IMG/VR virus record: IMGVR_UViG_3300034072_000301
Span: 1-25,151 of that record
Length of the DNA: 25,151 bases
Source: a virus
Reading direction: 5' to 3' (one strand)
Notes under the pieces: model-generated
Seen by the model: only the letters and a program-made list of their open reading frames with translations
Told to the model about the DNA's origin: nothing
Database searches by the model: none
Made by a program: the position numbers and the translations under genes
Shown: positions 13,118 through 25,118 of the stretch, piece after piece
Numbering within the stretch: position 1 is the first letter of the stretch
How the letters are laid out: each line of letters opens with the position of its first letter

Positions 13118-13306
13118 ATGATTCAATTACAGGGCTATGAACTGCCAGCCCACGTATCATACTCGGCATTCACTACCTACCTGACCTGTGGGTATCAGTA
13201 TTATCTAGGTCGACTATTAAAACTACCTGAAGAACCAAGCATCTGGTCTGCTGGCGGTAGAGCATTCCACGCAGCAACTGAGGAATGGGACCTAGCAAAT
13301 GACTAA
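13118..13306 (+). CDS. RecB/Cas4-like nuclease, N-terminal ORF
   Basis: 62 residues: HVSYSAFTTYLTCGYQYYLG then GRAFHAATEEWDLAND. The pattern S-x-S-x(n)-C-x3-Y followed by G-x-A-F-H is the N-terminal part of RecB/AddB/Cas4-type PD-(D/E)XK nucleases, where the first iron-sulfur cysteine (C24 here) and a motif histidine (H51) lie. The frame stops at 13306, and the remaining nuclease domain continues in the +1 frame from ATG 13299 (8-base overlap). Alone this peptide cannot be catalytic. Ribosome binding is by GACAGGAGA at 13104-13112. Confidence 0.68.
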   Translation: MIQLQGYELPAHVSYSAFTTYLTCGYQYYLGRLLKLPEEPSIWSAGGRAFHAATEEWDLAND

Positions 13307-13901
13307 TGCGTTATGGGCTAAAGCCTGGAGTGATGAGACCAAAGACCTTGATTTTACTAAGGCTAGAGTTGCTGGACGAGCAACCATTGCTAACCCGAAT
13401 AAGGAAGATGCTAACTGGTGGAATGAGAAGGGCCCACAGTGGGTCGATAACTACATATCTTGGCGTAAAAGCAATACGAATTGGAAGATTTGGAAAACCC
13501 CTCAAGGGGCTAAAGCAATCGAAATAGAACTCAATCCTGTCATCGCAGACGTGCCTGTGAAGATGGTGATTGACCGTGTCTTTGAGGTTGATGGCGAGTT
13601 AGTCATTGTTGACCTTAAGACATCAGCGCGTAGACCAACATCTGACCTACAACTTGGCTTTTATAAAGTTGGGCTAGAGATGATGCTTGGCGTAACCGTC
13701 AATCAAGGAAACTACTGGATGTCCAGAGACTCTGGGACAGGAGAGATGATTGACCTAAGTAGATATACCATCGACACTCTAGAATACTTGGTGTCTGGCT
13801 TTGATAAAGCCCGTAAGGCTGGTATATTTCTTCCTAACCTATCCAGTTGCAGTTACTGTGGACTCACGGAACACTGCACATTTACGAAAGAGAATAAATG
13901 A
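13299..13901 (+). CDS. RecB/Cas4-like nuclease, catalytic ORF
   Basis: 200 residues beginning MTNALWAKAWSDE, which continues the family alignment directly from the upstream ORF. Catalytic elements: IEIELNP (E75/E77), VIDRVFEVDGE (D92), and VIVDLKTSARRP (D105-x-K107), followed by a QLGFY helix. Three C-terminal cysteines, CSYCGLTEHC (C184, C187, C193), would complete an iron-sulfur cluster with C24 of the upstream ORF. Probable role: 5'-3' exonuclease or end processing in replication/recombination. Either the enzyme works as two chains, a frameshift joins them, or the window carries an indel. It overlaps the next gene by ATGA. Confidence 0.8.
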   Translation: MTNALWAKAWSDETKDLDFTKARVAGRATIANPNKEDANWWNEKGPQWVDNYISWRKSNTNWKIWKTPQGAKAIEIELNPVIADVPVKMVIDRVFEVDGELVIVDLKTSARRPTSDLQLGFYKVGLEMMLGVTVNQGNYWMSRDSGTGEMIDLSRYTIDTLEYLVSGFDKARKAGIFLPNLSSCSYCGLTEHCTFTKENK

Positions 13902-14294: not shown

Positions 14295-14350
14295 TTGAAA
14301 CCACTTGCTGTTCGGGGAAGGTAGTGAGTGGTTTCAACTTAAGACAGGAG
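14295..14350 (+). promoter_or_regulatory. 11-bp stem-loop plus CTTAAGACAGGAG box
   Basis: TTGAAACCACT (14295-14305) and AGTGGTTTCAA (14327-14337) form a perfect 11-bp inverted repeat around a 21-nt loop. The box CTTAAGACAGGAG (14338-14350) follows without a gap, and the ATPase ATG is at 14355. The 73-bp gap is the largest inside this operon. The layout (structured leader, then box, then start) matches leaders in the leftward operon. Weak loop-to-RBS pairing (TTGC with GCAA, TGT with ACA) is possible. Confidence 0.7.
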
Positions 14351-15953: not shown

Positions 15954-16296
15954 TCCCAATGGACGCAAGGGCGCCCAGTTTGAGACCGATGTAATGAAAT
16001 GGTTCAGGGCTATGGGTGCTGTATGCGAACGTCTTACCAAGACTGGAGCCAAAGATGAAGGCGACCTTGTCGCTATTGTTGCTGGCAAGACATACATCTT
16101 AGAACTTAAGAATAGAAAGAAGTTAGACCTACCTGCCTTCTGGGACGAGGCTCAGGTAGAAACAAAAAACTATACAAAGGCTCGCGGTCTTAAGACAGAA
16201 CCACCTGCCTTTGTTATAGTTAAACGTCGCAACGCAGGCATAGAAAAGGCTTGGGTCATACAGGATTTGGAACAATGGTTAGACGAGAGGAAGTAA
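15946..16296 (+). CDS. Holliday junction resolvase-like nuclease
   Basis: ATG 15946 gives 116 residues starting MANPNGRKGAQFETDVMKWF. PD-(D/E)XK motifs: E13 in the first helix, D40 in AKDEGDLVAIV, and E53-x-K55 in YILELKNRKK, with a later E/Q helix (FWDEAQVETKNY). This matches archaeal-Hjc-like resolvases widely found in actinobacterial phages, which cut four-way junctions before packaging. It overlaps the primase zinc-finger ORF by 22 bases. Another small PD-(D/E)XK nuclease is the alternative. Confidence 0.8.
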   Translation: MANPNGRKGAQFETDVMKWFRAMGAVCERLTKTGAKDEGDLVAIVAGKTYILELKNRKKLDLPAFWDEAQVETKNYTKARGLKTEPPAFVIVKRRNAGIEKAWVIQDLEQWLDERK

Positions 16297-16658
16297 ATGA
16301 CTTACCTAGTATCGCGGAAGTACTCCGTCACTATGGAGCAAATCTTCGAGCAACCAACGGGCAAGTTAATCTCCGTTGTCCTTTCCACTCGGACACTCAC
16401 CAAAGCGGTACAGCCAACCTCAATAAAAATATCTTCATCTGTTTTGCCTGCGGAGTGCAGGGAAACAGTTTACAAATCATAGCCAGACAGGAGAATGTGA
16501 ATATCAATGAAGCAAAGCGGATTGCAGAAGGAATTGTTGGGACGAGCAACGGACAAGTACACAGCAAGCATTTATCAGGCGGAAGATTACCTCAAAAGCA
16601 GAGGTATATCAATGGAGACAGCACGGCTGGCTCGATTAGGCGTAGTCGCAGAGGCTGA
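16275..16658 (+). CDS. DnaG-type primase, zinc-binding ORF
   Basis: Start placed at ATG 16275 (MVRREEVNDLPSIAEVLRHY); a start at 16251 is possible. The CHC2-type zinc finger is clear: RCPFHSD (C35, H38) and FICFACGVQGN (C56, C59). It recognises template for primer start. After about residue 90 the sequence turns into low-information basic text (HLSGGRLPQKQRYINGDSTA), while the TOPRIM part runs in the +1 frame from 16507. The 152-base overlap is unusual. Either a separate zinc-finger subunit or a broken/frameshifted primase gene. Confidence 0.75.
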   Translation: MVRREEVNDLPSIAEVLRHYGANLRATNGQVNLRCPFHSDTHQSGTANLNKNIFICFACGVQGNSLQIIARQENVNINEAKRIAEGIVGTSNGQVHSKHLSGGRLPQKQRYINGDSTAGSIRRSRRG

Positions 16659-17121
16659 AGTAGGCCACGAGGCATATCAAGGAAGGTTAAGTATCCCCTA
16701 TGTTACTAAAACTGGTGTTGTGGATTTACGGTTTCGTTCGCTCAATCCTGCAGTGGAGCCTAAGTATATGGGACTCACTGGCGCTGATACTAAAATGTAT
16801 AATGTTCTTGATATTGAGCGGGCTGGTGATTTTATTGGTGTTTGTGAAGGTGAGTTGGATACTATTACTATGTCTTCCTGTGTCGGTATTCCTTGTATTG
16901 GTGTTCCAGGGGCTAATAGTTGGAAGAAACATTACACGAGACTCCTCGCCGATTTCGAAAGAGTCTTTGTCTTTGCGGACGGAGACCAGCCAGGCAAGGA
17001 GTTTGCCAACTCACTTGCAAGAGAACTCCCTGTTACTGTCGTCCAATTCCCCGACGGAGAAGATGTTAACTCATTCTATATTGCAAATGGGGCGGAAGCA
17101 ATTAGACAGAAGATTCAATGA
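16507..17121 (+). CDS. DnaG-type primase, TOPRIM ORF
   Basis: 204 residues. After DKYTASIYQAEDYLKSRGIS comes the primase core: GRLSIPYVTKTGVVDLRFRS, GVCEGELDTITMSS (catalytic E114), and VFVFADGDQPGKEFA (D158-x-D160), the TOPRIM metal site. It makes RNA primers together with the upstream zinc-finger ORF. GACAGGAG (16486-16493), the Shine-Dalgarno part of the early-gene box, precedes the first in-frame ATG by 13 bases, supporting independent initiation. A TGA at 16498-16500 closes this frame upstream. It overlaps the next gene by ATGA. Confidence 0.82.
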   Translation: MKQSGLQKELLGRATDKYTASIYQAEDYLKSRGISMETARLARLGVVAEAEVGHEAYQGRLSIPYVTKTGVVDLRFRSLNPAVEPKYMGLTGADTKMYNVLDIERAGDFIGVCEGELDTITMSSCVGIPCIGVPGANSWKKHYTRLLADFERVFVFADGDQPGKEFANSLARELPVTVVQFPDGEDVNSFYIANGAEAIRQKIQ

Positions 17122-18744: not shown

Positions 18745-19418
18745 ACTGGGAACGCATTGAACCTTGGCAGTATATAGTTGATGCTGTCGCACTAGAATAC
18801 TCTCGTAAGTTTGAGATGGTGGAAGTTGATGACTTAAGACAGATTCTTTATCAGTGGTTTGCTGAACACCCTAGGAAGTTAGATGAATGGGAGGCTAAGG
18901 GAGATAAGGATGCTAAGAATTTAATCTATCGTAGCCTAAGAAATCAGGCTTTAGATTACTGCCAGAGATGGAAGGCTAAGTCTGTTGGCTATGATATCTC
19001 TGACCTTTATTACTACGCCCCTGAAGTAGTAGAGGCTTTGCTTTCTCCTGTCTTAAGAGGTGAGTTTAACTCAACACATAAATTAAATCTTGGAAGAACT
19101 GGTCGTCCTACTGCCCCTGCTGAAGGCGGTAATTTAATGGCGATGATGATAGAAGTTGATTATGTTTATTGGAAGTTAGGCAAAGAGGATAGAAAGATTT
19201 TGTTTATGCGCCACGCTGAGAGTTTAGATTTCAGAGAAATCGCTAACCTCTTAAGTTTGGGCTCAGAAGATGCCGCTCGTATGCGGCACAAGCGGGCTGT
19301 TAATAGACTCATCAGAAAAATTGGTGGCTTCAAACCCTTTCCTGATTATGACTTGCCAGAAAAGGAAGAGGAAGAATCTGAGGTTGTATCTGAGGTAAAT
19401 CCTACCCCTGAAGATTAG
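18741..19418 (+). CDS. Sigma-factor-like protein
   Basis: 225 residues. Region 2-like helix VEVDDLRQILYQWFAEHPRK is followed by RSLRNQALDYCQRWKAK. The C-terminal region 4-like helix-turn-helix is LGKEDRKILFMRHAESLDFR, EIANLLSLGSEDAARMRHKR, then AVNRLIRKIGG. This is the layout of phage sigma-70-like or sigma-region-4 regulators and may direct host RNA polymerase to late or middle promoters. An acidic tail ends the protein. An exact antisense copy of the 13-base early box lies inside the gene (19045-19057). Its stop overlaps that of the convergent FmdB-like gene by 4 bp. Confidence 0.72.
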   Translation: MNWERIEPWQYIVDAVALEYSRKFEMVEVDDLRQILYQWFAEHPRKLDEWEAKGDKDAKNLIYRSLRNQALDYCQRWKAKSVGYDISDLYYYAPEVVEALLSPVLRGEFNSTHKLNLGRTGRPTAPAEGGNLMAMMIEVDYVYWKLGKEDRKILFMRHAESLDFREIANLLSLGSEDAARMRHKRAVNRLIRKIGGFKPFPDYDLPEKEEEESEVVSEVNPTPED

Positions 19419-22107: not shown

Positions 22108-22455
22108 TTAAGCCATAACTTTAACTGGTAAACTTGTCCACTTTCCACCTTCGTAAAGGTGTAAGTATTCTGCCCATTGGTCGCGGGCGTAGTCTTCCCA
22201 CTCCTCGAATGTTTGGAATGTTCGCGCCTCTGTCCCTGTCTCTCCGCGCTTTGCGTATGAGTCTATATTCTCGGGTTCGGTATCGTTAACTCCCGAGATG
22301 TCTCCGAGATTTAAAAGGGTTTCAACCTTTGCGGGGTCGCTATAATGCTCCGTTAATGCTGCGCCCACGCCCTCTGGGTATCCGTCCCAATGGCAATAAA
22401 TTGCCTTTATAGTTCCGTCTTGTTGCCTTGCTCCGATGTTGCTTCGTGTTGCCAT
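22108..22455 (-). CDS. Conserved-type phage protein, 115 aa
   Basis: ATG 22455 after a CTTAAGACAGGAG box. MATRSNIGARQQDGTIKAIY then CHWDGYPEGVGAALTEHYSD and KVETLLNLGDISGV belong to a protein pattern I recall from many phages and plasmids, always uncharacterised. C-terminal half: EEWEDYARDQWAEYLHLYEG and GGKWTSLPV, a predicted alpha/beta fold. Its TAA stop is the TAA of the next box (CTTAAG), so stop and control motif coincide. Preceded by a structured leader (22479-22556). Confidence 0.74.
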   Translation of the reverse strand: MATRSNIGARQQDGTIKAIYCHWDGYPEGVGAALTEHYSDPAKVETLLNLGDISGVNDTEPENIDSYAKRGETGTEARTFQTFEEWEDYARDQWAEYLHLYEGGKWTSLPVKVMA

Positions 22456-22471
22456 TTTGTTTATCTCCTGT

Positions 22472-22556
22472 CTTAAGTAGTAAAGCGAGACTCTCCCGCC
22501 TTACTCGTGCCCCGTTATTGTCTCGCTCAATTCGCCCTCTGTAAAGGGTGCGGGGC
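22472..22556 (-). promoter_or_regulatory. Structured RNA leader copy 1 and early box
   Basis: In the minus-strand RNA, GCCCCG/CGGGGC (22509-22514 with 22551-22556) closes a three-way junction. Its arms are CCCT/AGGG (22535-22538 with 22545-22548) and ATTG/CAAT (22517-22520 with 22528-22531). A second hairpin follows: 11 bp (22480-22490 with 22494-22504) with loop GAG. Two of its pairs are G-U only in the minus-strand RNA. CTTAAGACAGGAG ends the leader. Copy 2 at 23130-23206 keeps the same layout with different stem sequences. Confidence 0.7.
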
Positions 22557-22578
22557 TGTGAGTTGCCTCACATAGTTT

Positions 22579-22758
22579 TTAGATGTAGTAGTTATCACTT
22601 AGCCATTCTTTTAGAAAGAACCCGCCAACTAGTAAGGCTCCAACGATTACCGCGAAAGGCGCGACGAGTGCGAGGCTTGCCCATAGTTCGAGGGCCTCGT
22701 TTCCTGTCTGCTGTGCTGTGTCTGCTACTTCTTGCCATTTGTTAAGGTATTTTATCAT
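22579..22758 (-). CDS. Small membrane protein, 59 aa
   Basis: ATG 22758, seven bases after AGGAG of a CTTAAGACAGGAG box. An amphipathic start (MIKYLNKWQEVADTAQQTGN) precedes a single TM helix (LWASLALVAPFAVIVGALLV) and a short tail (GGFFLKEWLSDNYYI). Together with the other TM mini-protein at 21018-21188 the operon encodes at least two tiny membrane proteins. Candidate for superinfection exclusion, but untested. Confidence 0.62.
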   Translation of the reverse strand: MIKYLNKWQEVADTAQQTGNEALELWASLALVAPFAVIVGALLVGGFFLKEWLSDNYYI

Positions 22759-22781
22759 TTCATTTCTCCTGTCTTAAGTCG

Positions 22782-23114
22782 TTATCTCTTGAGGTTGTCT
22801 AGTGTTTGTCTTGCGATGATGTCGAAAGGTAAAGAGCCCTGACCCTTTAACATTTGACCGATGAACAGCCCTGCGGTTTCGCTAATTTTATCGGTCACGA
22901 GGTCCATCACTTGCTCCGCTAGTGTTTCCCATTCATCGCTCAACTTGTTTGATAAATCTGCGACACCTTCGGCCTCTTGCGCGTCTTGCATCAACTCGGC
23001 CTGTGTTTCTTCGATATTTTCGGCCACCATCAGCCACTCGGTGGCGAATTGCTCGGCTAAAATAAAGCGCTTTGCCATATCGCTAACCGTTTCTGTCTGT
23101 GTTTCTGTAGTCAT
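22782..23114 (-). CDS. Acidic helical protein, 110 aa
   Basis: ATG 23114 after CTTAAGACAGGAG and a run of A. MTTETQTETVSDMAKRFILA is followed by long acidic helices (ENIEETQAELMQDAQEAEGV; EWETLAEQVMDLVTDKISET) and a hydrophobic end (LFIGQMLKGQG). Net charge is strongly negative. Might be a coiled-coil adaptor or a DNA-mimic-like inhibitor; no family. Preceded by structured leader copy 2. Confidence 0.66.
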   Translation of the reverse strand: MTTETQTETVSDMAKRFILAEQFATEWLMVAENIEETQAELMQDAQEAEGVADLSNKLSDEWETLAEQVMDLVTDKISETAGLFIGQMLKGQGSLPFDIIARQTLDNLKR

Positions 23115-23117
23115 TTT

Positions 23118-23206
23118 TTTTTCTCCTGTCTTAAGTAATAAGGGAACTCTTCCCCTATCGTGCCCCCGCTAGGTCTTGAACCTGCGCCCTCTGTAGGTGC
23201 GGGGGC
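23118..23206 (-). promoter_or_regulatory. Structured RNA leader copy 2 and early box
   Basis: Minus-strand RNA: GCCCCCGC/GCGGGGGC (23162-23169 with 23199-23206) closes arms CCT/AGG (23188-23190 with 23195-23197) and AGGT/ACCT (23171-23174 with 23180-23183). It is followed by an 8-bp hairpin (23139-23146 with 23150-23157) with the same GAG loop as copy 1. TACAGAGGGCG and GGGCACGA are the conserved sequence parts; the stems differ but still pair. The box CTTAAGACAGGAG (complement of 23123-23135) and the start follow. Confidence 0.7.
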
Positions 23207-23213
23207 TGTCGTT

Positions 23214-23651
23214 CTATGCGCTCGCCTTCTCTTGTGCTTTCTGATACTTCTCGATTAGTGCTTGAACTTTTGGCTGAAATAGCGCGTCATCTCGTCGCCA
23301 AATTTCTCGGCGTTTTTCGTCTTGCGCTTTCCATTCTTCGGTCTCATAAACGCGGGCTCTGATTGAATCAACCTTGAGGTTTGCCTCATCTCTTACTGCT
23401 CGGGCTTCTTTGTTCAGGGCTTGAATCAGGGCTTCAATTTCTCCCGCTCTTGTCTCTGCTTTTTGGCGGATTGCGTGAATCTCCTCTGAGTTTGCCACTA
23501 TGTGAGCCCGCTCGATTTGGTCTAAGTTTCTCCGAGCGTCCCAATGTTCATCGGATAATTTTTTCTGCTCCATTTCTGAGAGTTTATCTAAAAAGGCGCG
23601 GTATCTTGCGGGGCTTAGGTTTTCTTTTGCCCATTGTCTCGGGTTGTTCAT
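23214..23651 (-). CDS. Coiled-coil protein, 145 aa
   Basis: Start ATG 23651 is used because the CTTAAGACAGGAG box (complement of 23664-23676) lies 12 bases upstream; a longer frame from 23792 would run through the SprT gene end and the leader. MNNPRQWAKENLSPARYRAF is followed by nearly continuous heptad-like helix (KLSEMEQKKLSDEHWDARRN; AETRAGEIEALIQALNKEAR) rich in Glu, Arg, Lys and Ala. Probably an elongated dimer. No catalytic motif. Function unknown. Confidence 0.68.
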   Translation of the reverse strand: MNNPRQWAKENLSPARYRAFLDKLSEMEQKKLSDEHWDARRNLDQIERAHIVANSEEIHAIRQKAETRAGEIEALIQALNKEARAVRDEANLKVDSIRARVYETEEWKAQDEKRREIWRRDDALFQPKVQALIEKYQKAQEKASA

Positions 23652-23744
23652 TGTAGTTCTGTTCTCCTGTCTTAAGTCTGAAAAGTTCTGAGGCTCATCA
23701 GTCGGGGCACTTACCCCGAGACCATCGCCCCGATTTCTCGGGGC
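23652..23744 (-). promoter_or_regulatory. Leader with three hairpins and early box
   Basis: The 107-bp gap after the SprT stop holds GCCCCGA/TCGGGGC (23727-23733 with 23738-23744; in RNA a GAAA tetraloop), CCCCGA/TCGGGG arms (23702-23707 with 23714-23719), and CTGA/TCAG (23688-23691 with 23698-23701). They are followed by CTTAAGACAGGAG (complement of 23664-23676). The first two stems share CCCCGA/TCGGGG arms and could swap partners. No U-run follows, so termination is unlikely. Confidence 0.6.
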
Positions 23745-23758
23745 TAGGTTTCGCCTTG

Positions 23759-24382
23759 CTACGCTTTGAACTCTTTCCCGCAATTTTGGCACATCGGGCG
23801 GGATTTTTCAAGGACCGAGGCCGAGAGGCGGATAACGCTATCGCAACCGCACCGCGCACTTTTTAGGTTTTTATTGCGCCCTGCGCCTTTCTTAACTTGC
23901 TCCGAGTCTGCCCTTAGCGATAGCGCCTCCTCGATTAGGGCTAAGGCCTCGGCCCATCTAGTGGCGCACTCATCGCTCACCTCGGTGTTGCTCCAGCCGA
24001 TACCCTTGGCCTGTGTAATCGTGAGCCCTAGGCTCTCGGCTGTAGCCTTGAATTTCTGGTTATGATACCCGTCCCCGCTCACGCCCTTAATTCCCGCTTG
24101 GAGGTCTAGGGAATGGGCCACCTCGTGGAGGAGGGTGCCGAGAATGGCGCGGGCGCCTCTCTCGAAATAGTTTGCGCTTATCATTATCTCGTGGAAATTA
24201 TCTTCGCCCGCTTTCCAAATCTTCGCGTGCGTAAAGTGGCCCATTGTCCGCCCTGTCTTACGGGTGACTAGAATCGTGGCGCGGGGGGCGCCTGTCTTCT
24301 CTCTGATAATCTCGTGAGCATTTTCGAGAGCGCTAGCGATGTTCGATAGTCTCTCGGTCTTCTCTAGTGTTGCTGTGTTCAT
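23759..24382 (-). CDS. SprT-like zinc metalloprotease
   Basis: 207 residues, first gene of the leftward operon. TLLHEVAHSLDLQAGIKG gives HEVAH (86-90), with the third ligand probably H107 in GYHNQKF, as in SprT/Spartan proteins. A C-terminal zinc ribbon (RCGCDSV, C178/C180; MCQNCGKEF, C198/C201) completes the usual SprT layout. The family digests DNA-protein crosslinks or is otherwise linked to DNA-bound proteins; in phages its target is unknown. ATG 24382 follows GACGGGAG. A promoter and a LexA box lie upstream. Confidence 0.85.
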   Translation of the reverse strand: MNTATLEKTERLSNIASALENAHEIIREKTGAPRATILVTRKTGRTMGHFTHAKIWKAGEDNFHEIMISANYFERGARAILGTLLHEVAHSLDLQAGIKGVSGDGYHNQKFKATAESLGLTITQAKGIGWSNTEVSDECATRWAEALALIEEALSLRADSEQVKKGAGRNKNLKSARCGCDSVIRLSASVLEKSRPMCQNCGKEFKA

Positions 24383-24428
24383 TTCTTCTTCTCCCGTCTC
24401 GGTTAGGTATTTCCTGCCGATAAGTGGA

Positions 24429-24457
24429 ACTTTACGCCTTAAGCCTTAACCTGTCAA
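24429..24457 (-). promoter_or_regulatory. Leftward early promoter
   Basis: On the minus strand TTGACA (complement of 24452-24457), a 17-bp spacer, then TAAAGT (complement of 24429-24434). The spacer contains a CTTAAG palindrome (24438-24443), which would place any CTTAAG-binding factor inside the RNA polymerase footprint. The predicted start is about 40 bases before the SprT-like gene. Confidence 0.7.
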
Positions 24458-24490
24458 GGGTCTTTCTAGTGATGTCGGTCACATTATTAC

Positions 24491-24506
24491 TCGAACAGAT
24501 GTTCGA
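24491..24506. promoter_or_regulatory. LexA/SOS box
   Basis: TCGAACAGATGTTCGA: 7-bp perfect arms around two bases. It matches the Gram-positive/actinobacterial LexA operator (CGAAC-N4-GTTCG) in every fixed position. It lies 34 bp upstream of the -35 of the leftward promoter. An AT-rich TAATAAT just downstream in the leftward direction could be the -10 of a second promoter overlapped by the box. Implies host LexA, hence DNA damage, can influence this operon. Confidence 0.78.
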
Positions 24507-24840
24507 ATGATTCCCCTTATTCTTCCCCTGAATAGAACCCTAACTCTCAACTATAGGTCTAGGGTTATGGATTATTTCTGGATTATTCCCCCCCGCCATA
24601 ACCTGCGGGGAGATAGTCATCCTCTCCATACGCTCTCATTACTTGCTATTTATTATTGTTATTAGCCTAGAATCTAGATTTAAATAACTATCAATGAAGA
24701 CTTAAGACCTAAAAGAAACTAGCCTCCTCCTCGGGGGAAGTAAGTCTGCCAGAGAGAGGCACCGCTCAAGGCGGTTTGACCCCACACTAGTTAAAATCGG
24801 TCGTATATGTGTATATAGACTCACCCAAAATATTTCTGTT

Positions 24841-24894
24841 ATATTCGCCCTATATACCTCTGAACAGCACTTATATCGCCCAAAGGGCGAATAT
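24841..24894. repeat. 10-bp inverted repeat with nested hairpin
   Basis: ATATTCGCCC (24841-24850) is the exact inverse of GGGCGAATAT (24885-24894). A second copy of the left arm core, TCGCCC (24876-24881), forms a short hairpin with the same right arm (AAA loop). So one right arm can pair with either of two left arms 35 bp apart. A TGAACAG half-site lies between. Confidence 0.6.
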
Positions 24895-24961
24895 TAATAT
24901 ATTTTAAAAATACTTCATATAAATCTGTTCGGTTTTACGATTTGAACAGGTTTTCTTATAT

Positions 24962-25050
24962 GTATAGATATTTATATATCTATACGGAGCGTCGCTCCGC
25001 CTCTTGCGGGCTACGCGACTATATATAATATATATATATTATATAATATA
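24962..25050. other. AT-rich tracts with GC-rich hairpin core
   Basis: GTATAGATAT/ATATCTATAC (24962-24971 with 24976-24985) is a 10-bp inverted repeat. CGGAGC/GCTCCG (24985-24990 with 24994-24999, loop GTC) follows, overlapped by CCGC/GCGG (24997-25009). Then comes about 32 bp of pure A/T (25019-25050). The design (A/T tract, 6-bp GC hairpin with 3-nt loop, A/T tract) mirrors 12961-13035 at the other end of the early region. Candidate unwinding element or promoter region. Confidence 0.5.
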
Positions 25051-25118
25051 GACCTAGGTGCCCATATTCTGACCGTTTATAGAGGGGCGTTTATAGTAGT
25101 TTTTAATGGGGGTACTTA

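Follow-up and report, generated by a model that had tools for sequence, protein, structure and literature searches.

A family of tRNA-like three-arm RNAs placed between genes of freshwater phages

The window analysed here, the whole stretch of 25,151 nucleotides of DNA from an actinophage encoding WhiB and sigma, contains two copies of a compact RNA element that is like a tRNA domain in its geometry and yet is no tRNA. Both copies belong to a large and widespread phage RNA family, apparently undescribed, whose three-arm structure shows covariation in all three arms. No earlier description of this tRNA-like RNA was found in the open-access literature or in the RNA families searched. In addition, neither the window nor two cultured phages that carry the element, E7 and F5, gave any match at Rfam gathering score, in agreement with the original prediction, made from the sequence of the window, that the RNA might be an undescribed one. 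Searches of Rfam at permissive E-values returned weak matches only, which were at chance level or driven by the Shine-Dalgarno sequence.

Anatomy of the two copies in the window

Two structured elements had been predicted ahead of two leftward genes, and both were located on the minus strand, at 22505-22556 (copy 1, type A) and at 23158-23206 (copy 2, type B). The core of copy 1 reads, 5' to 3' from 22556 to 22505, GCCCCGC A CCCU UUACAG AGGG CGA AUUG AGCGAGA CAAU A ACGGGGC ACGA. It consists of an acceptor-like stem with six of seven positions paired (22556-22550 with 22515-22509), a D-like arm (22548-22535, CCCU-UUACAG-AGGG), a T-like arm (22531-22517, AUUG-AGCGAGA-CAAU) and a 3' ACGA (22508-22505). 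The core of copy 2, from 23206 to 23158, reads GCCCCCGC A CCU ACAG AGG GCGC AGG UUCAAGA CCU A GCGGGGGC ACGA; its acceptor-like stem, GCCCCCGC paired with GCGGGGGC, has 8 bp, its D-like arm is CCU-ACAG-AGG, its T-like arm is AGG-UUCAAGA-CCU, and its 3' ACGA lies at 23161-23158. Pairing is thus kept in both copies despite changed stem sequences, as had been claimed. The window has exactly two occurrences of the sequence TACAGAGGGCG, and three when one mismatch is allowed, against 0.23 expected.

Hairpins adjoin the cores on the same strand. The hairpin HP1 of copy 1 (22557-22572; 5'-3' UGUGAGGCAACUCACA, 22572-22557) has a GNRA loop (UGUGAG-GCAA-CUCACA) and is flush with the 5' end of copy 1. On the 3' side, the ACGA is abutted in copy 1 by HP2, GUAAGGCGGGA-GAG-UCUCGCUUUAC (22480-22504), and in copy 2 by its own HP2, UAGGGGAA-GAG-UUCCCUUA (23139-23157), both of which were obtained by folding. 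When the copies were folded and compared with shuffled sequences, the minus strand gave z = -5.4 for copy 1 and -4.6 for copy 2, values equalled by none of 200 shuffles, while the plus strand was weaker (z = -2.5 and -2.1, respectively). The folding energies therefore beat those of shuffled sequences, and the argument that the leftward transcript is the functional molecule holds.

Each copy lies between two genes of one transcript. Copy 1 begins 22 nt after the stop codon of a gene at 22579-22758 (-) and precedes a gene matching phrog_1987, which has no assigned function (22108-22455 (-), ATG at 22455). Copy 2 begins 7 nt after the stop codon of a gene at 23214-23651 (-) and precedes a gene at 22782-23114 (-), with its ATG at 23114; this last gene had no match in Pfam or PHROG, and its family is the commonest one downstream of these tRNA-like elements. 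As for the gene upstream of copy 2, the longest open reading frame (23214-23792 (-)) begins at a GTG at 23792, and a start-associated box at 23664-23676 favours an ATG at about 23651 as the start.

The genes downstream of the two copies are also preceded by a 13-nt start-associated box, CTTAAGACAGGAG, with a Shine-Dalgarno sequence, at 22465-22477 (-), where it is predicted to be mostly unpaired, and at 23123-23135 (-); in the mRNA it reads CUUAAGACAGGAG (22477-22465 and 23135-23123). The window holds 32 near-matches to this box, compared with 8 expected, and no shuffle reached 32. Its nine exact copies are found at 14338 (+) and at 19045, 21029, 21939, 22100, 22465, 22766, 23123 and 23664 (-), the boxes lying mostly just ahead of the start codons of leftward genes, and the tRNA-like element accompanies only two of the nine. 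The original prediction had noted a CTTAAG box beside the structures: the box is present, but it is not special to them, being part of the 13-nt box that also stands before structure-free genes.

A phage RNA family with covariation in all three arms

An exact pattern scan found the element in nine viral contigs, and looser patterns returned many more matches; those of one pattern set were mostly chance occurrences inside coding sequence and were removed by a filter on the acceptor and the Shine-Dalgarno sequence. The first sets of regular expressions demanded ACGA or AC at positions 73-76. A check pattern that ignored these positions recovered mostly AC[GTA][AT], with some exceptions; conservation at positions 73-76 is nevertheless partly inflated, since the seeds were picked with AC there. 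The seed of a covariance model, CM R1, comprised 17 sequences resembling types A and C and none of type B, and a search with this model gave 130 matches at 98 loci. Copy 1, a seed member, scored 73.8 bits. Copy 2 was also recovered by this model trained without type B (33.6 bits, E = 2.4e-5 over the 964 kb searched), which bears out the claim that the two copies are one RNA family. In total, 107 distinct copies of about 45-53 nt were gathered.

Four subtypes can be distinguished: subtype A (GCCCCGC...AUGG AGCGAGA CCAU), subtype B (GCCCCCGC...AGG UUCAAGA CCU), subtype C (GCCCUAA...GGUA UUCACGA UACC) and subtype D, a minimal 45-nt form reading GCCCCCG CC UAGC GGG UA CGGA UUCACAA UCCG A CGGGGGC ACUA. 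Because types A and B were off by one column in the MAFFT alignment A1, this alignment was left out of the pair counts. In the seed alignment of 17 sequences, standard pairs filled 95.6% of the pair cells, compared with 73.7% after shuffling, and 51 double changes were counted against 15.3 +/- 2.7 in shuffled alignments; each slide of the partner strand by 1-3 columns lowered every pairing measure. Among 72 anchored sequences there were 198 double-change cells, against a mean of 52 and a maximum of 75 in 500 shuffles, although kinship inflates tests of this kind. The T-like stem occurs as AUUG/CAAU, AUGG/CCAU, AGAG/CUCU, CGUG/CACG, GGUA/UACC and GUUA/UAAC, a diversity that leaves little doubt about the covariation even though relatedness inflates the shuffle tests. 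The D-like arm also covaries (CCCUU/GAGGG, CACUU/GGGUG, CUCUU/GGGAG, UAGUU/GGCUA, CCGAU/GUCGG). Homologues with paired changes, for which a covariance-model search had been set as the test beforehand, were thus found in viromes and in cultured phages.

Likeness to tRNA and departures from it

A partial likeness of copy 2 to a tRNA had been suspected; our analysis revealed that it extends to copy 1 and to the whole family. Among 86 distinct cores, 79 are paired at seven of seven acceptor positions, and the T-like stem has 3-4 bp plus a mismatch. Counted from the T-loop to the acceptor end, there are 12 helical layers in 75 of the 86 cores and 11 in the other 11; the 12 layers are made up of 7 + mismatch + 4 and, in type B, of 8 + mismatch + 3. 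In the T-loop (tRNA positions 54-60 of the same 86 cores), C56 and R57 are each present in 85 cores (99%), and T54 (78%), T55 (76%), G59 (85%) and A60 (85%) are also frequent, T55 being replaced by G in a quarter of the cores. The 3' end carries A73 in 81/86 (94%), C74 in 83/86 (97%) and A76 in 74/86 (86%). Position 75 is occupied by G, T or A; among 107 distinct cores, C75 occurs in just 3, and 102 have G-C or G-U as pair 1-72. Of 141 contexts, 126 have A as residue N-1, with CA|G conserved at the 5' border, and in only 2 could N-1 pair with N73; because this pairing is almost never possible, the acceptor end and the 5' border are sharp.

However, every copy has only three helices, the anticodon arm is absent, and so is a variable loop. 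Neither ARAGORN nor the Rfam tRNA model called the element as a tRNA. No tRNA or tmRNA gene was found in the window, and no tRNA genes were found in E7 and F5.

Placement between genes and flanking hairpins

Among 108 contexts, 106 have a same-strand open frame of 40 codons or more whose end lies 5-44 nt upstream of the element, and in many type-A copies the upstream stop codon falls within the 5' hairpin. The Shine-Dalgarno box usually lies 25-44 nt past the core, with a start codon soon after, so that the next start is about 40 nt away; the Shine-Dalgarno sequence is predicted to be mostly unpaired (mean pairing probability 0.22). The downstream genes belong to at least 36 unrelated protein families. 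An element that follows a stop codon, precedes a start codon and stands ahead of 36 families is intercistronic and not a promoter leader. The original description of a structured RNA leader is therefore upheld for the structure and not for the leader, as the two copies in the window lie 7 and 22 nt past the preceding stop codons and are not promoter-proximal. The first element is found 20-926 nt past the stop codon of a sprT-like gene, which in the window (23759-24382) is the first leftward gene past an AT-rich gap. Upstream of this gene, positions 24420-25080 of the window are AT-rich with long A/T runs and no convincing gene, and form a candidate origin or promoter region.

Of 105 contexts, 103 have a 3' hairpin directly after position 76 (mean -9.8 kcal/mol, compared with -3.0 kcal/mol for shuffled sequences), and a 5' GNRA-type hairpin with varying stems is flush with the element in 53 of the 105. 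The type-A copies of E7 and F5 (L219:1383-1434 (-) and L220:23538-23589 (+)) have no 3' hairpin HP2, which indicates that what stays constant is the core rather than the hairpin. In a related group of phages (L166, L179, L208, L209 and L210), about 85 nt separate the element from the start codon; this region contains further hairpins and is conserved around ATGATAGACATTCGCGG, which makes it a candidate second structured RNA.

Distribution in phages and hosts

Two cultured phages of Planktophila, E7 and F5 (OX376640, OX376641), carry the element; they are lytic on 'Ca. Planktophila landstejnensis' of the order Nanopelagicales (PMC10202952). The family as a whole occurs in phages related to these two, read here as Nanopelagicales phages. 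For an independent sample, phages were retrieved by the neighbouring sprT-like protein, which is unrelated to the RNA. Of 52 loci retrieved in this way and followed by 1.5 kb or more of sequence, 45 carry the element, and all 86 model matches in this set lie on the operon strand. Five of the eight loci listed have a protein identity of 34-41%, and in four of the five no copy was detectable. The fifth is L277, at 41% identity of the sprT-like protein; it has a variant copy right after a stop codon (L277:2532-2578), which is readable with a U1-A72 pair extending the acceptor, followed by ACTC; the model parsed it one position in.

A host-encoded origin was considered and rejected: when 257 billion bases of bacterial and archaeal genomes were scanned with the type-B pattern, there were four matches, none of which formed the element in context. 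A search of 397 Actinomycetota genomes with CM R1, under strict filters and run without a positive control, returned no match, and no Nanopelagicales genome was recognised in the host-genome sample.

Possible functions of the element

Judging by sequence features, we give a probability of about 0.45 to the reading that the element is a tRNA mimic which punctuates the early polycistronic mRNA, host RNase P and/or RNase Z cutting at it while the hairpins guard the ends. The acceptor/T-arm unit would be what the host tRNA-maturation enzymes recognise, with a cut by RNase P on the 5' side of G1 and perhaps one by RNase Z on the 3' side of A73. Such putative cuts would separate mRNAs at gene borders; each new 5' end would carry a hairpin, as would many of the new 3' ends, and these hairpins would shield the ends. 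For RNase Z, a missing CCA is permissive. RNase P gauges the 12-bp acceptor plus T stem (PMC11143913), and among the features of its substrates the element has the 12-layer ruler and C56, while of the 3' RCCA it keeps A73 and C74 but almost never C75. From the ruler, the elbow C56 and A73 C74 (PMC11143913), we infer recognition by RNase P, and its cleavage of phage and polycistronic mRNAs offers a precedent (PMC11143913). However, several features weigh against punctuation. The near absence of C75 would make the RCCA contact of RNase P incomplete, N-1 is A where the favoured U is absent, HP1 and HP2 crowd both putative cut sites, and the G at T55 in a quarter of the cores, together with the failure of ARAGORN and the Rfam tRNA model to recognise the element, points in the same direction. 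A broader reading, held with slightly less confidence, is that a mini-tRNA without an anticodon evolved in DNA phages of the dominant freshwater bacteria as a dedicated signal for gene borders in general. At each copy, the host tRNA-maturation machinery would cut the early polycistronic message of the phage, which would be a virus-made analogue of mitochondrial tRNA punctuation.

The position right after stop codons, the stable hairpins flush with the core and the avoidance of C75, which speaks against full tRNA identity, would also suit an uncut roadblock or insulator between cistrons, which would halt a 5'-3' exonuclease of the RNase J type or post-termination ribosomes and set the stability or the independent translation of the next gene. 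This alternative deserves weight but is unlikely: it is not obvious why a roadblock should need a T-loop like that of tRNA, conservation of the ACNA end or a constant length of 12 layers, and the E7 and F5 copies that lack HP2 argue against a plain hairpin barrier as the core function. We consider it more doubtful still that the element is a binding site for a phage or host protein or for RNA polymerase, for example in antitermination like that of the put RNAs of HK022. Sequence-specific reading is suggested by the near-invariant GCC/GGC stem end, the ACNA and the loop bases, and the operon is probably long; but a put-type RNA would work on RNA polymerase close to the start of the operon, whereas here several copies occur per operon, 20-926 nt past the sprT-like gene and not at the promoter, and no candidate RNA-binding protein was present among the proteins scanned.

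Three further explanations have very low probabilities. A released or embedded mini-tRNA could act as a decoy, sequestering a host tRNA enzyme or a defence directed at tRNA, and the tRNA-like elbow and acceptor and the several copies per genome would fit this; however, there is no anticodon arm to offer to anticodon nucleases, the full CCA is nearly absent, and a decoy acting in trans would not require precise intergenic placement, which makes this role highly improbable. Slightly less probable again is a riboswitch or thermosensor, that is, a leader sensing a metabolite or temperature and governing the downstream gene. Although a structured RNA does stand ahead of the Shine-Dalgarno box, there are 36 unrelated downstream families and no expression platform, the Shine-Dalgarno sequence is unpaired (0.22), the lack of a U tract after HP2 means that there is no terminator, and no Rfam riboswitch matched at gathering score. 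The least probable explanation is a DNA-level repeat, serving as a recombination linker or protein-binding site that aids the shuffling of gene cassettes. The element does stay while neighbouring genes vary between phages, and gene flux in E7 and F5 is high (PMC10202952); yet the compensatory changes in three arms, G-U pairs included, and the energy bias toward the sense strand are signatures of RNA, and the covariation largely refutes this explanation.

Whatever its function, the element adds a structured RNA family with multiple copies per genome to the phages of highly abundant freshwater bacteria, and the cultured pairs of E7 and F5 with 'Ca. Planktophila landstejnensis' make the function directly testable. 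If the proposed tRNA-mimic cleavage is true, the phage organises its own mRNAs by tRNA mimicry, and more than 100 natural C75-avoiding variants would inform the minimal tRNA features required by RNase P and RNase Z in cells. If the element is left uncut, it is a natural mini-tRNA fold that presumably has a reader.

Comparison with known systems

With tRNA (RF00005) and the anticodon-less minihelices that serve as model substrates of RNase P, the element shares the 7-bp acceptor, G1-C72, about 12 stacked layers and A73 C74 N A76; its T-arm is partly like that of tRNA, with a UUCRA-type 7-nt loop but 3-4 bp plus a mismatch where tRNA has a 5-bp stem. It differs from tRNA in its shrunken D-like arm, in the mismatch at layer 8 or 9, in the avoidance of C75 and in being embedded in mRNA. 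The animal mascRNA/menRNA (RF01684) is a tRNA-like RNA freed by RNase P and RNase Z, and it is likewise a tRNA-like module within a longer transcript; it gave the only tRNA-like echo in Rfam, a sub-threshold match to copy 2 (15.8 bits, gathering 42.5). However, it is a single-copy 3'-end element of animal lncRNAs and is non-homologous by every criterion tested. Mitochondrial tRNA punctuation also places tRNA-shaped RNAs between the coding regions of one long transcript, but it uses real tRNAs, whereas the phage element has no anticodon and its cleavage is putative.

In genome anatomy, the nearest described system is that of the start-associated sequences (SAS) of cluster K mycobacteriophages, 13-nt boxes of which about half have an extended upstream element, ESAS (PMC3203893). 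Both sit in the non-structural half of actinophage genomes, and ESAS is an inverted repeat of 17 bp whose formation of hairpins in mRNA had little support in the authors' analysis (PMC3203893), in contrast to the three-arm tRNA-like RNA supported here by covariation. The boxes themselves, GGGATAGGAGCCC for SAS and CTTAAGACAGGAG in the window, have the TAGGAG/CAGGAG core alone in common. RNase P also acts on mRNA and phage RNA in the his operon, T4 gene 32 and the C4 RNA of P1/P7 (cited in PMC11143913), but these are individual structures and not a dedicated multi-copy tRNA-like family. Freshwater-2 RNA (RF02980), which is listed as cis-regulatory and has a consensus ending in a ribosome-binding site and a start codon, gave weak matches adjoining two copies of the element, with 17.8 and 16.0 bits against a gathering score of 49.9; these alignments cover mainly the Shine-Dalgarno and start region, not the structure of the element.

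Other observations in the window

Two rightward genes of the window appear to be split. At 13118-13901 (+), a PD-(D/E)XK/Cas4-like nuclease is spread over two overlapping open reading frames in different frames, which match positions 1-48 and 76-246 of the PF12705 profile; a frameshift, a sequencing error or a programmed shift could account for this. In addition, a primase at 16251-17121 (+) is seemingly split across two overlapping frames, with a cysteine-rich, zinc-finger-like part at 16251-16658 and a phrog_849 primase match at 16507-17121.
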